Shown one piece after another: positions 25,493 through 31,124 of a stretch of 64,000 nucleotides of DNA (position 1 is its first letter; each line of letters begins with the position of its first letter). Source of the stretch: an uncultured Acetatifactor sp. (GTDB taxonomy: Bacteria > Bacillota > Clostridia > Lachnospirales > Lachnospiraceae); NCBI GenBank assembly GCA_944383825.1, contig CALWRA010000004.1, positions 1-64,000 of the forward strand, in the 5' to 3' direction. Made by a program: the position numbers and the translations under genes. The notes beneath the pieces were generated by a model. The model saw only the letters and a program-made list of their open reading frames with translations. It was not told where the DNA came from and made no database searches.

Positions 25493-26548
25493 ATGGTAAC
25501 GCTGATCTTATTTGTCATAATTTTTGGGGTGGTGGTAGTTTCACATGAATTCGGACATTTTTTGCTGGCGAAGGCCAATGGAATCCACGTAGTGGAATTT
25601 GCTGTGGGAATGGGACCAACCATTTTTTCCTTTCAAAAAAAGGAAACGAAATATTCTCTAAAGCTTTTTCCCATAGGCGGAGCCTGCATGTTTGAGGGAG
25701 AGGACGGCCTTGAGACAAAGGAGGGAGAGCCCTCTGAGGGCTCCTTTCTGAATGCAAGCGTCTGGGGAAGAATTTCAACAGTGTTTGCCGGACCTTTTTT
25801 CAACTTTATTCTGGCATTTATCATAGCGCTGATTATGGTAAACTTAATTGTAATCAGGGATCCGGTGGCCACAGAGGTTCTGGAGGGCGGCGCCGCAATG
25901 GAGGCCGGGCTTCAGGACGGAGACAGAATTCTGTCTCTGGATGGAGAAAGGATTTATTTGTATGAGGAGATACAGCTGTTTACTTTGCTGTATAATTCCG
26001 GGCCGGTGGATGTTGTATATGAGCGGGCCGGCCAGGAGTATGAGACCCAGCTCACTCCCCAATATGACCAGTCCACAGGCCGGTATATGCTGGGAATTTC
26101 AAACTCTGACTTTGTAGAGCTTGAAGGCTTGGATGGACTGCGGTACGCGTGGTATGAGATGCGTTACTGCGTGAAGATGACCTATGAAAGTTTGGTTATG
26201 CTGGTGACGGGGCAGGTCAGCCGCCAGGATGTTGCAGGACCGGTGGGAATCGCGGTGAATCTGGTGGGCAGAACCTATGAAGAAACCAGGGATGAAGGCT
26301 TTATGAACGTGTTTGTGAACATGCTCAATATTACTCTGATGCTCTCAGTAAATCTCGGCATCTTGAATCTCCTTCCCATTCCGGCGCTGGACGGAGGCAG
26401 GCTGGTGTTCCTGCTGATAGAGGTAATCAGAGGAAAGCCTGTTCCGCCGGAAAAAGAGGGCATGGTGCATTTTATCGGCCTCATGTTTTTTATGGTTTTA
26501 ATGGTATTTCTGTTTTTCAACGATCTTTCTAATATTTTCTTGAATTAA
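25493..26548 (+). CDS. rseP: Site-2 intramembrane metalloprotease, RseP/RasP type
   Basis: Cleaves membrane segments of substrates such as anti-sigma factors and signal-peptide remnants. Zinc motif HEFGH in the first helix (about residues 18-22), third motif NLLPIPALDGGRLV near the C-terminus supplying the catalytic Asp, and a single PDZ domain between (about 115-190, GAAMEAGLQDGDRILSLDG). 351 residues, about four membrane helices. Starts immediately after dxr, the standard neighbour. It could act on either of the two anti-sigma candidates in this window, but no evidence links them. Confidence 0.95.
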   Translation: MVTLILFVIIFGVVVVSHEFGHFLLAKANGIHVVEFAVGMGPTIFSFQKKETKYSLKLFPIGGACMFEGEDGLETKEGEPSEGSFLNASVWGRISTVFAGPFFNFILAFIIALIMVNLIVIRDPVATEVLEGGAAMEAGLQDGDRILSLDGERIYLYEEIQLFTLLYNSGPVDVVYERAGQEYETQLTPQYDQSTGRYMLGISNSDFVELEGLDGLRYAWYEMRYCVKMTYESLVMLVTGQVSRQDVAGPVGIAVNLVGRTYEETRDEGFMNVFVNMLNITLMLSVNLGILNLLPIPALDGGRLVFLLIEVIRGKPVPPEKEGMVHFIGLMFFMVLMVFLFFNDLSNIFLN

Positions 26549-26689: not shown

Positions 26690-27406
26690 ATGGAATTTTT
26701 AACTTCATATTACTGGAGACAGGGAGAGGGAAGCGAAGGGGGAACATCCCTGATTTTACGCCAGGGAACCTTACGGGAAATCCCGCTGGCCTTTGCATGT
26801 CTGTGTACGGACAGTCAAGGGGGAAGAGAGGCCGATTATATTACAGGACAGCTTCTTGAATGGTACCGTATGAACAGCGGAGCTTTTGTCTCCCGCAGGG
26901 GAGGCGTCAAAATCGAGAGAATGCGGGAAAAGCTGAGAAATGCTTTGGAGCGGATAGAAGACGAATTTTATTCGGAAGGAAAAAAACAGGGGGGAAGAGA
27001 GAAAAGGCAGAACAGCGATTTATCCGGTATTTTGTGCGCAGGCGGCTCTTTTCTTCTGTTCTTCCGGGGAACTCACCGTATTTATCTGGCAAATACAAGA
27101 TTTTTGCGCCCTCATCTGAAACCCATAGCGGCAGGGGAATGTGAGGGCCGCGACAGGGAGCTCCACATGGAAAGCGGAAGGATGGAGCCTGGCATTGGCG
27201 TTCTTTTAGCGACGGCGACGTTTTACGGATGCCTGGCGGAGAAAGATTTGGCACAATGCCTGGAGGCGGACAGACTGCGCTCTCAGATTCAGCTGGACAA
27301 GCGACTGGAAGAGCTGGGGAGAGAGGCGGAAAAAAATGCGCCGTCAGAGACAGGGAGAGAAGGGCTGGGAGCCGTGCTGCTGTCGGTCAGGCGGGAAGCG
27401 GAATGA
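26690..27406 (+). CDS. PP2C-like protein with degenerate metal sites (probable pseudophosphatase)
   Basis: 238 residues. The layout follows PP2C Ser/Thr phosphatases: an N-terminal strand region, FACLCTDSQGGREADYITGQ in place of the usual xxxDGxGGxxxG, a middle SGILCAGGSFLLFFRGTHRIYLANTRF in place of GDSR, and GVLLATATFYGCL in place of LLxTDGxxx. Asp41 is kept but Gly is Ser, GDSR has become ANTR, and the late metal-binding Asp is Ala. It therefore looks like a PP2C fold that has lost catalysis. It sits 39 bases before a Ser/Thr kinase gene. The start ATG 26690 follows AGGGAGGT, preceded by a small CCGC-TAAA-GCGG hairpin. The fold assignment is by pattern, not by search. Confidence 0.55.
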   Translation: MEFLTSYYWRQGEGSEGGTSLILRQGTLREIPLAFACLCTDSQGGREADYITGQLLEWYRMNSGAFVSRRGGVKIERMREKLRNALERIEDEFYSEGKKQGGREKRQNSDLSGILCAGGSFLLFFRGTHRIYLANTRFLRPHLKPIAAGECEGRDRELHMESGRMEPGIGVLLATATFYGCLAEKDLAQCLEADRLRSQIQLDKRLEELGREAEKNAPSETGREGLGAVLLSVRREAE

Positions 27407-27445
27407 CTGAATGAACGCCTGCTTTAGCAGGCGGGGGGAGCGCCA

Positions 27446-28222
27446 ATGAAAGACAGATTGTGTGAAAAGGGTTATGAAATATTGAATATTGTGGGAAAGG
27501 GTTCCTTTTCCACGGTATACCGACTAAGAGAAATGAAGACGGGAAGGCATTGCGCCTGTAAGGTAAGTGAAAATCAAAAAATGCTTTTCAGGGAGGCTGA
27601 GCTTTTGAGAAGGTTGGAGCATCCTCTCTTCCCCGTTTTTTACGATTTTTGGCAGCAGGAAAAGGAAGCCTGTCTCGTTATGGAATACATAGCCGGCACA
27701 AGCCTGGAAAAGCTGGTGGGGGACCGGGGAAGGCTTACTGATAGACGGGCATCGATAATAGGGCTGGAGCTGGCTTCCGGGCTCGCATATCTTCACGAGC
27801 TGCCCATCCCCATCCTGCATAGGGACATAACTCCAGGGAATATTTTAATCAGGCAGGATGGAAGGGTAAAGCTATTGGATCTTGGCTGCGCCTGTGCTGT
27901 GGGAGAGAAAGGAATAAGAGCGGGAACGCCGGGCTTTGCAGATCCCCGGCAGCTAAAGGGAAGCCGGGCCTGTGAAGCGGGAGACATTTACGCCTTTGGA
28001 AAAATTCTGCAGTTTATGCGGGGTGGAAGGCTGTGTAGACTGGCTGAGGCATGCATAAGGCAGCAGCCCGGCGACAGACCCGGGAATATGCGTATCTGTC
28101 TTTACGCTCTGATGGATTGTATGGAAAAGGAGACCGAAAAAAATATAACAGGGATAATTTTTGGAAGAAAGGAAAAGGAAATCTGCCGTAATGCCAAAGC
28201 AGTGTGGAAAAAGTCTCAATAA
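27446..28222 (+). CDS. Ser/Thr protein kinase (soluble, kinase domain only)
   Basis: 258-residue Hanks-type kinase: glycine loop GKGSFSTV (17-24), ATP lysine in CACKVS (K38), Glu of helix C in REAELL, catalytic loop HRDITPGNIL (D127), and DLG (about 145) instead of DFG, followed by AGTPGFADP as activation segment/APE region. The catalytic residues look intact. No PASTA repeats or membrane helix, so it differs from the PrkC/StkP type usually found beside a PP2C and RlmN. The partner gene upstream is the degenerate PP2C. Starts with a GGGGGGAG site preceded by a perfect 6-bp GCCTGC/GCAGGC hairpin. Confidence 0.85.
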   Translation: MKDRLCEKGYEILNIVGKGSFSTVYRLREMKTGRHCACKVSENQKMLFREAELLRRLEHPLFPVFYDFWQQEKEACLVMEYIAGTSLEKLVGDRGRLTDRRASIIGLELASGLAYLHELPIPILHRDITPGNILIRQDGRVKLLDLGCACAVGEKGIRAGTPGFADPRQLKGSRACEAGDIYAFGKILQFMRGGRLCRLAEACIRQQPGDRPGNMRICLYALMDCMEKETEKNITGIIFGRKEKEICRNAKAVWKKSQ

Positions 28223-28327: not shown

Positions 28328-28525
28328 TTATTTCATCTGCTCTTCCTGCTTTCTGATCATACGACGCACCATTTCACCGCCGATAGAACCGGCTTCCTTA
28401 GAAGTCAGGTCACCGTTGTACCCCTCCTTCAGGTTTACGCCAAGTTCAGATGCGACCTCAGTCTTAAAACGATCCATTGCCGCCTTAGCTTCAGGAACTT
28501 CCACTCTATTACTTCTGCTTGCCAT
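28328..28525 (-). CDS. Alpha/beta-type small acid-soluble spore protein
   Basis: A 65-residue SASP that coats and protects DNA in the dormant spore. Conserved blocks: NRVEVPEAKAAMDRFKTEVASE, with the germination protease (GPR) cleavage region around FKTEVASELG, and GDLTSKEAGSIGGEMVRRMI, the DNA-binding C-terminal segment. The start follows GGAGGTG. A sigma-G promoter would be expected upstream; I could not identify one with confidence in the AT-rich sequence. Confidence 0.95.
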   Translation of the reverse strand: MASRSNRVEVPEAKAAMDRFKTEVASELGVNLKEGYNGDLTSKEAGSIGGEMVRRMIRKQEEQMK

Positions 28526-28712: not shown

Positions 28713-29759
28713 ATGAAAAAAGCAAAAAGAATATTCATTGGACTTGTACTTTTCATTGCGCTTGGCGCAGGGGTTTTAGGAGGCTGTACAAGTTTGCAGG
28801 AAAAAGCTGAAGGAAGTGATACCGCAGCGATGACGCCTGGTCTGGAACCAGTTGCCGCAGAAAAAGAAGCGGTGAGAGTCGGTTCACTGAAAGGGCCTAC
28901 ATCCATGGGACTATTATTCCTTATGGAAAAAGCTGGAAATGAGGAAGGGGAGAATGCTTACACCTTTCAAATGGCCGCCGCGGCGGACGAGCTTCTGCCC
29001 CTTATGGTCAGGGGAGAACTGGATATTGCTCTGGTTCCTGCAAATGTAGCGGCCGTTCTTTACCAGCAGACAGAAGGCGGCATTAGCGTAATAGATATTA
29101 ATACGCTGGGCGTGCTTTATATGGTATCAGGAGATGCCTCTGTGGAAAATATTTCCGATCTGAAGGGGAGAAGGATTTATCTGACAGGGAAAGGGACTAC
29201 GCCTGATTACGCACTGCAGTTTCTTTTGAACGAAAACGGAATGACGGTTCAGGATTGTGAGCTGGAATACAGATCCGAGGCAGCTGAGGTTGCGGCACTG
29301 CTTCAGGAAAATCCGGACGACATTGGTCTCCTGCCTCAGCCCTTTGCCACTGCAGCCTGTGAACAGAATCCTGCGTTGAAAGTGGTTCTGGATTTGAACC
29401 GGGAATGGGACAAGGTACAGGGAGAGAATGGCAGCAGCCTGGTTACGGGAGTTACCATCGTGCGGGATGAGTTTCTGGATGAGCATGAGGATGCGGTGGC
29501 TGCGTTTTTAAAGGAGCATGAGGAGAGTGCATCCTCTATCAATCAGGATATTGAAAAAGGGGCAGTTCTGGCGGTGGAACAGGGAATTGTGGCAAACGAA
29601 AATATTGCGGAGAAAGCCATTCCCAGATGTAATATTACGTATATGGATGGGCTTGAGATGAAGCAGGCGCTTTCGGGGTATCTGGAGGTTCTGTTTTCTC
29701 AGTCGCCTGAATCCGTGGGAGGTGAGCTTCCGGATGATGATTTTTACTATGTGAGGTGA
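28713..29759 (+). CDS. ABC transporter substrate-binding lipoprotein (NMT1/SsuA-like)
   Basis: 348 residues with a lipoprotein signal peptide (MKKAKRIFIGLVLFIALGAG, lipobox VLGGC) and a periplasmic-binding fold of the NMT1/TauA/SsuA type: VRVGSLKGPTSMGLLFLM, DIALVPANVAAVLYQ, the hinge ISDLKGRRIYLTGKGTTPDY and a C-terminal helical part. Proteins of this type bind sulfonates, thiamine precursors or similar small solutes; the ligand cannot be read from sequence. The gene for a fused permease-ATPase starts 9 bases after its stop, so the two make a complete importer. Confidence 0.85.
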   Translation: MKKAKRIFIGLVLFIALGAGVLGGCTSLQEKAEGSDTAAMTPGLEPVAAEKEAVRVGSLKGPTSMGLLFLMEKAGNEEGENAYTFQMAAAADELLPLMVRGELDIALVPANVAAVLYQQTEGGISVIDINTLGVLYMVSGDASVENISDLKGRRIYLTGKGTTPDYALQFLLNENGMTVQDCELEYRSEAAEVAALLQENPDDIGLLPQPFATAACEQNPALKVVLDLNREWDKVQGENGSSLVTGVTIVRDEFLDEHEDAVAAFLKEHEESASSINQDIEKGAVLAVEQGIVANENIAEKAIPRCNITYMDGLEMKQALSGYLEVLFSQSPESVGGELPDDDFYYVR

Positions 29760-29768
29760 GTAGGCCAA

Positions 29769-31124
29769 ATGGAGCGCAGAAAGCTGAATGTGAATGCAGT
29801 GCCGTGGCGAAAAGTGCTCATTATCGTTTTTTGGGCGCTCGTGTGGCACGGATTGGCTCTTTGGGTGGATAACTCCATTCTGCTTGTCACGCCGTCAGAG
29901 ACGGTACGGGCTTTGACGGCGCTTTTGCCCTTGGCAGAGTTCTGGCAGACCATTCTGGTTTCGCTGCTGCGCATAGGGGGAGGATTCTTTCTGGGAAGCC
30001 TCTGCGGCGTTGTTTTGGCTGGCCTTGGCTGGAAAAGCAGAATGCTGAAGGAAGCGCTTACTCCGGTGATGAATCTCCTGAAAGCCATACCGGTTGCTTC
30101 CTTTGCGGTGATTTTGCTGATTTGGTGGGGATCCTCCATGCTGGCGGTGGCCATCAGCTTTTTGGTGGTGCTGCCCAATATTTATATTCAGACCTTAGAG
30201 GGTCTGAAAAGTACTGATAAGAAGCTTCTGGAGATGGCGGAAGTGCTTGCCCTTCCCTTTTGGACTCGCTTTTTATATATATACCGGCCTGCACTGAAGC
30301 CTTTTTTGTATGGAAGCATGAAAGTGTCCCTGGGCATGAGCTGGAAATCCGGCGTTGCGGCGGAGGTTATCGGTACGCCGGACTTTTCCATAGGGGAAAG
30401 ACTGTATCTGTCTAAAATATACTTGGATACGGCGGGAGTCTTTGCCTGGACGGTGGTGGTAATCCTGCTGAGTCTTTGTTTTGAAAAGGCTGTGCTCAGG
30501 CTGCTGGATCAGCTTTATGGATGGGAGCCCCCTTGCAAAAAAGCGGGATCGTCAGACGCCGGAAAAGGCGCTCGGACCCCAGGTGAAATCGTTTGCAGCA
30601 AGGTTTCCAAGGGTTACGGAAGGGGGAAGGTGTTGGAGGAATTTTCCGCTTCCTATGGCCCGGGCGGAAAGATTCTGCTCACAAGTCCCTCTGGCAGCGG
30701 AAAGACCACGCTTCTGCGCCTTTTGTGTGGCCTGGAGCAGCCGGACTCCGGTGAAATCGCCCGGAAGGGAAGCTGCAGTATGATGTTCCAGGAGGACAGG
30801 CTCTGTGAGGAATACAGCGCACTCCGGAATGTGGAGATGGTGGTGGGAGATAAAATAAAGGCCCGATCCGCTCTTTTGGAGCTTCTGGAGGAAGAGGCCC
30901 TGGACGGGCCCTGCGGTCGTTTAAGCGGAGGGATGAAGCGTCGGGTGGCTTTGGTGAGGGCAATGGAGGCGGAATCAGATATTGTGCTGCTGGATGAGCC
31001 CTTTACCGGTATGGACGCGGATACTCAAAGAAGAGCCCGCTCCTATATTCAGAAAAAGCAAAATGGGAGACTGCTGGTTATGGCTTCCCACTCGGAAGCC
31101 GGAAGAGAAGAAAGCGTTCTGTAG
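29769..31124 (+). CDS. Fused ABC permease-ATPase (SsuC/SsuB-like in one chain)
   Basis: 451 residues. The N-terminal 250 form a BPD-type permease with six predicted helices and the EAA loop (ALPFWTRFLYIYRPALKPFLY). After a short linker (about 252-275) comes a compact nucleotide-binding domain: Walker A SPSGSGKTTLL, a Q-loop in SMMFQEDRLCEEY, signature LSGGMKRRVALVRAM, Walker B DIVLLDEPFTGMD, and H-loop MASHS. The ATPase part is only about 175 residues, shorter than the usual 250. Normally ssuB and ssuC are separate genes, so the fusion is unusual. With the upstream lipoprotein it should import a sulfonate/taurine-like or thiamine-precursor-like solute. Confidence 0.85.
   Translation: MERRKLNVNAVPWRKVLIIVFWALVWHGLALWVDNSILLVTPSETVRALTALLPLAEFWQTILVSLLRIGGGFFLGSLCGVVLAGLGWKSRMLKEALTPVMNLLKAIPVASFAVILLIWWGSSMLAVAISFLVVLPNIYIQTLEGLKSTDKKLLEMAEVLALPFWTRFLYIYRPALKPFLYGSMKVSLGMSWKSGVAAEVIGTPDFSIGERLYLSKIYLDTAGVFAWTVVVILLSLCFEKAVLRLLDQLYGWEPPCKKAGSSDAGKGARTPGEIVCSKVSKGYGRGKVLEEFSASYGPGGKILLTSPSGSGKTTLLRLLCGLEQPDSGEIARKGSCSMMFQEDRLCEEYSALRNVEMVVGDKIKARSALLELLEEEALDGPCGRLSGGMKRRVALVRAMEAESDIVLLDEPFTGMDADTQRRARSYIQKKQNGRLLVMASHSEAGREESVL

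Follow-up and report, generated by a model that had tools for sequence, protein, structure and literature searches.

A PP2C-like protein without catalytic aspartates is encoded with a soluble Ser/Thr kinase downstream of rseP in Lachnospiraceae and may act as its regulatory subunit

In Firmicutes, a PP2C phosphatase (Stp or PrpC) is encoded beside a Hanks-type kinase (PrkC or Stk1); Stp is active, and PrkC is membrane-bound and carries PASTA repeats. TAB1 has its TAK1-binding part after the PP2C domain, and the animal proteins PHLPP1 and PHLPP2 are large multidomain proteins. A PPM phosphatase is usually dedicated to a kinase and often shares an operon with it, as stated in the available part of PMC6213207. 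PP2C pseudophosphatases are known from eukaryotes, with TAB1 and PHLPP as described examples (PMC12002173, available part), and our literature search, which chiefly covered open-licence papers, found none from bacteria and no bacterial pair of such a protein with a kinase.

Here we describe a bacterial candidate, found in a stretch of 64,000 nucleotides (the window) from an uncultured Acetatifactor sp. of the Lachnospiraceae (GenBank assembly GCA_944383825.1, contig CALWRA010000004.1, positions 1 to 64,000). On the plus strand the genes dxr, rseP, PPX and KIN follow each other (PPX is our name for the PP2C-like protein, KIN for the kinase), and this order recurs in relatives. The features are as follows.

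25493..26548, plus strand: rseP, M50 protease (TIGR00054, E 5.4e-75), the immediate upstream gene and anchor of the conserved locus
26690..27406, plus strand: PPX, pseudophosphatase of predicted PP2C fold, 238 aa, with Asp at none of the five catalytic Asp positions
27068..27079, plus strand: GTHR, PPX residues 127-130, counterpart of GDSR with Asp replaced by Thr (profile and MAFFT alignments, and the intermediate L122, which has GDAR)
27086..27109, plus strand: LANTRFLR, an LxNxxFxR motif typical of degenerate members, containing ANTR
27203..27223, plus strand: LLATATF, counterpart of LLCSDGF with the metal-binding Asp replaced by Ala (alignments)
27446..28222, plus strand: KIN, soluble Hanks-type Ser/Thr kinase, 258 aa (PF00069, E 3.2e-35)
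28190..28222, plus strand: KIN tail NAKAVWKKSQ, putative PPX docking peptide (divergent, 1.8 bits, assigned by eye)

The initial annotation had the pair following rseP directly, and this is borne out: PPX lies 141 bp after the rseP stop (which ends at 26548) on the same strand, and 39 bp separate PPX from KIN. Downstream, a short minus-strand open reading frame (28332-28525), convergent with KIN, resembles by eye an alpha/beta-type small acid-soluble spore protein. Positions 28713-31124 hold an SsuA-like binding protein and then a fused permease-ATPase ABC protein; relatives of these two genes are also found downstream of rseP in several genomes without PPX and in locus L034. With dxr, rseP and a transporter as the neighbours of PPX and KIN, type VI secretion context is absent here. 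Contig C3 of the window's genome encodes a second Hanks kinase in a 714-residue frame that adjoins a PP2C, the two being probably a PrkC/Stp pair; a whole-genome search returned no second PPX.

In KIN, the catalytic residues K39, E50, D127, N132 and D145 are all present, and the catalytic columns are invariant across 18 aligned kinases. The kinase had been called intact, which holds for the catalytic residues only, because the Glu of the APE motif is replaced (ADPRQ). It is a matter of speculation that this replacement could raise the dependence of the window's KIN on a partner. As had also been noted, PASTA and membrane parts are missing: Pfam and NCBIfam searches and a hydropathy scan of KIN gave no PASTA repeats and no hydrophobic segment (top 19-residue hydropathy 1.08), and KIN scores 104 bits against NF033483, for which the cut-off is 450.

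PPX has no match in Pfam or NCBIfam. A PP2C match is likewise absent when 29 PPX members are compared with Pfam, a PPX profile gives chance matches only among PDB sequences (best E 0.23), and a contig search with PPX itself retrieved no relatives; the search with a kinase alignment worked (80 loci among the matches listed). Descent from PP2C is indicated by a profile built from the 29 PPX relatives alone, which finds true PP2Cs beside kinases, including those of the Stp/PrpC and PrkC/Stk1 type, a gene arrangement that PPX-KIN shares. The same profile matches the intact rseP-linked phosphatase of locus L055 at E 6.4e-30, a protein that Pfam assigns to PP2C_2 (E 7.7e-12).

Such intact rseP-PP2C-kinase modules of other Lachnospiraceae have the same locus and neighbours as PPX-KIN. 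They differ in their phosphatase, which retains the full set of five catalytic Asp in each of the 27 rseP-linked copies sampled (MAFFT), and in their kinase, which in many cases (others lack it) carries a transmembrane helix and an extracytoplasmic part. This part is small in the membrane kinases of L128, L221, L036 and L237, and in the two that were searched (L128 and L221) it had no Pfam match.

For the window's PPX, AlphaFold (33-row alignment) gives a PP2C-fold model with pLDDT 87.2 and pTM 0.87, in line with the PP2C layout that had been read from the sequence. The top Foldseek match of the model is Stp1 of S. agalactiae (2pk0, E 3.9e-10). Structural alignment with VIA-align yields Z 23.2 for PppA (2.2 A, 201 residues), Z 22.8 for S. 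agalactiae Stp1 (2.7 A, 209 residues) and Z 19.8 for TAB1 (2pop; 3.2 A, 219 residues aligned). PppA, of the PppA-PpkA pathway of type VI secretion, is merely the top VIA-align fold match, and the gene context differs. Because intact PP2Cs were included in the input alignment, the fold model depends on the homology call; the profile result is independent. By predicted structure and profile together, PPX has the alpha-beta-beta-alpha fold of PP2C.

At the five Asp positions of the metal site (NxD, DGxGG, GDSR, SDG and DN), the window's PPX has T, T, T, A and G according to MAFFT (the last is E by profile), so that it lacks the metal-coordinating Asp of PPM/PP2C at five positions out of five. The counterpart of NQDS is GGTS, with T at the Asp position. 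The Asp of DGxGG coordinates both main metals in PP2C. The DSQGG that the initial annotation proposed for this site is no conserved remnant, because it is T40 that aligns with the Asp, D41 is shifted by one, and the nearest relative (L002) has CDPA here. Its assignment of ANTR to GDSR does not hold either: the alignments and the intermediate L122 sequence GDARAYLINSRF place the counterpart at GTHR, with ANTR seven residues further. The loss of the late metal-binding Asp in LATATF is confirmed by alignment.

The degenerate members share a set of conserved residues that sets them apart. In the LxNxxFxR motif the degenerate members have N in 75%, F in 75% and R in 69%, against 7%, 4% and 17% in the 27 intact rseP-linked PP2Cs. 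A Cys and a Gly are also conserved mainly in degenerate members, and one Glu (E208 in the window's PPX, in the RLxELG helix) is invariant in the aligned degenerate set and present in about half of the intact members. Judged from the alignments, these residues point to a new constraint on the protein.

To see how widely the loss is shared, we scored 168 PP2C-like genes adjacent to kinases at four Asp positions in a profile alignment, calling copies with 0-2 of the four degenerate and those with 3-4 intact, classes that are set by the counts themselves. A gap at a scored position was counted as a lost Asp, and this bears on truncated or badly aligned rows (L019, L146, L224 and L225, for example). 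Among 105 rseP-linked copies (duplicates removed), all four Asp are kept in 27, three in 0, two in 3, one in 19 and none in 56; the gap between the classes (no copy with three) is the finding, and it applies to rseP-linked copies only. When members not seen beside rseP are added, with the exception of L058 (two of four Asp by profile, itself not seen beside rseP), the 87 degenerate members keep none in 63 cases, one in 21 and two in 3. MAFFT counts, which use five positions and include L058, give none in 50, one in 29, two in 8 and three in 1 of 88 degenerate members. For 47 other intact PP2Cs they give five Asp in 43 and four in 4 (gaps at the first site).

The isolated Asp that some of these 88 members retain at old sites, together with Glu as the commonest residue at the SDG site (25/87), might be taken to mean that the metal site of PPX has been rearranged and the phosphatase is still active. 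We think this very improbable: there is no conserved substitute set of acidic residues, the DGxGG Asp is kept in just 10 of 80 aligned members, and in the window's own copy all five positions lack Asp.

A profile match to PPX is present in 85 of the 138 genomes of the window's genus. The locus was read in 84 of these 85 (G563, with its match at a contig end, was left out), and each copy read is degenerate wherever the motifs can be aligned. One genome, G003, has in addition to its degenerate form an intact PP2C-kinase module (L221) after a second rseP on another contig (C61), which may be a contaminant. In a family-wide draw, 53 of 397 genomes gave a match, and the 30 loci listed are mostly intact PP2Cs.

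RseP lies outside the PPX-KIN pair. In a tree of 53 of the 90 available RseP rows (the degenerate ones hand-picked for spread), a single clade (support 100) contains all 29 degenerate rows and excludes the 24 intact ones; one inactivation suffices to explain the split. On the kinase tree (78 of 125 rows), a clade with support 98 holds 35 of the 38 degenerate rows, and L146, L149 and L058 fall outside it. Several independent inactivations were considered for L146 and L149, but the test does not reject a single clade (p-AU 0.257 when both are included, 0.472 when L146 alone is). Most simply, then, the catalytic residues would have been lost once, in the ancestor of one clade.

For the listed PPX pairs at 50-97% identity, dN/dS (NG86) ranges from 0.10 to 0.37, similar to the values for KIN from these genomes. 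Many of the pairs approach saturation at synonymous sites, no value was obtained for one PPX pair, and a few pairs are a single locus entered under two names. On these ratios the dead PPX is under purifying selection, not decaying. That PPX is a decaying gene without function might be suggested by its fast sequence divergence and by relatives that keep the kinase and have no PPX. Yet dN/dS values far under 1 and like those of the kinase, open frames of ordinary length in many genomes and a confident fold make this reading barely credible. PPX combines what defines a pseudophosphatase: a (predicted) PP2C fold, lost catalytic residues and retention by selection.

The association with KIN is close. 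PPX and KIN share one reading frame in seven distinct genomes (L123, L205, L212, L214, L218, L220 and L224, the last at a contig end), with almost no linker in the two fusions that were aligned; six of the seven were placed on the kinase tree, where they group together (support 94). An AlphaFold model of one natural fusion was too poor for reading an interface (pLDDT 69, kinase C-lobe mostly below 50). Among the PPX loci surveyed, L017 alone had no kinase nearby, and it was rejected as a case of PPX without KIN after a kinase was found about 2.6 kb downstream in the same genome.

The reverse case does occur. In a sample of 38 of the 53 PPX-lacking genus genomes, whose rseP regions were read (several are cut by contig ends), 11 have a kinase after rseP and no PPX, and in the complete cases the gap between rseP and the kinase is below 500 bp, which leaves no room for PPX. 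PPX is dispensable. Four of these PPX-less kinases (L264, L267, L271 and L273) carry YGD instead of HRD and group together (support 100), and a weak PP2C fragment was seen at the edge of L256.

Kinases without PPX, together with the 2.6-kb separation in one genome, would also suit a PPX that serves another partner and is linked to KIN by inherited operon order. We give this little credence, given the PPX-KIN fusions and, as set out below, the absence of a recognisable kinase tail where there is no separate PPX.

A link to a locus on contig C28 of G000 (L117, 14000-30000) was also considered. Two PP2C-like genes (partly degenerate by eye, one below the Pfam cut-off) are found there together with genes for a VWA protein, two FHA proteins, what looks by eye like an Hsp70-like protein, and a 729-aa protein that has no match in Pfam. 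The locus was rejected as a fixed partner because the 729-aa protein occurs in 18 of the 138 genomes of the genus, whereas PPX occurs in 85 of them. At L118 (7637-8785, minus strand) a DUF6382-FHA protein is encoded beside genes that look by eye like Tad/Flp pilus genes; it may read phosphothreonine, and its genome encodes just two Hanks kinases.

The kinases of the dead clade are soluble and usually end in a tail, of which EKNIWESxYKN is the commonest form. We modelled the last 28 residues of the kinase, with a threshold of 5 bits and 5-fold cross-validation in which relatives occur in both halves because the folds were random. At least 5 bits are reached by 62 of 76 kinases with a separate PPX, against 0 of 7 fused kinases, 0 of 9 without PPX (two more of the 11, truncated at contig ends, were excluded) and 0 of 76 shuffled tails. 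The 14 of 76 below 5 bits include the window's own tail. A first model, which took in part of the last kinase helix, did not separate the classes cleanly (medians 33.4 with separate PPX, 8.9 fused and 6.6 without PPX), and the final one was shortened to 28 residues after that outcome was known. The fused and the PPX-less kinases, which are tailless, fall into three groups on the tree, so that about three events underlie the association. It suggests that the tail would be the docking site of a separate PPX.

As the main alternative to docking, the tail could serve a role at the membrane surface. Many kinases of intact modules have an EKNIWLTEKKxxGL-like segment followed by the transmembrane helix and the extracytoplasmic part, and others end soon after the segment; the dead-clade tail looks like this juxtamembrane segment, and a real likeness could point to such a role. 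The likeness rests on the eye, because the tail model finds none of 35 kinases of intact PP2C modules at 5 bits or more (highest 4.5). A membrane-surface role leaves unexplained why PPX-less and fused kinases lack the tail.

Summarizing, the partnership of PPX and KIN is well supported genetically. The initial annotation had raised a pseudophosphatase that binds or regulates the kinase, and the shared loss, purifying selection, co-occurrence, fusion and tail pattern all speak for it at the level of sequence. From these data we infer physical binding of PPX to KIN, the tail as docking site, and regulation. We consider it probable that PPX is a dead PP2C kept as a dedicated subunit of KIN, docked on its tail and regulating it.

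PPX would then descend from the active phosphatase that other Lachnospiraceae encode between rseP and a Ser/Thr kinase; it would have lost its catalytic residues and afterwards been retained as a dedicated subunit of KIN. It may grip the basic-aromatic C-terminal tail of KIN via the former substrate face or a nearby surface, and may set the activity or the substrate choice of KIN, as TAB1 does for TAK1.

The nearest working analogy for PPX-KIN is TAB1-TAK1, by which we claim no common family. PPX resembles TAB1 in its predicted PP2C fold, its lost catalytic residues and the kinase partner that we propose for it. In contrast to TAB1, PPX consists of the PP2C domain alone: its last strand spans residues 226-234 of 238 and no kinase-binding segment follows. 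It also has no Asp at the aligned sites, whereas a single manganese is bound in the M2 site of TAB1 (PMC12002173, available part). The same portion of that paper describes for PHLPP1/2 an active-site loss in a common ancestor and long retention, in which PPX is similar; PHLPP2, unlike PPX, is zinc-bound, and partner and role of PHLPP differ.

The same genetic evidence would also suit a PPX that is a phosphoprotein reader, scaffold or decoy, binding the phosphorylated products of KIN or bringing substrates to it and leaving its activity unaltered. For PHLPP, the authors of PMC12002173 suggest, in its available part, that activity was lost and substrate binding possibly kept. The tail pattern, however, points to contact with KIN itself, and the window's copy retains the Arg of GDSR, which some other degenerate members lack; we regard such a role as unlikely. 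As for the regulatory subunit, it might be the first case known to us of a bacterial PP2C turned into a subunit of its own kinase, acting as activator or specificity subunit that reads the kinase tail, with the reversal of phosphorylation lost; we put this forward tentatively, with belief and doubt not far from balance.

The survey reveals a kinase-phosphatase module in many gut Lachnospiraceae, for which we found no name. One locus shows a series: an active phosphatase (often with a membrane kinase), a dead phosphatase with a soluble kinase, then fusion or loss. Since living relatives preserve the active, dead, fused and lost forms, the transition from phosphatase to kinase regulator is directly testable.
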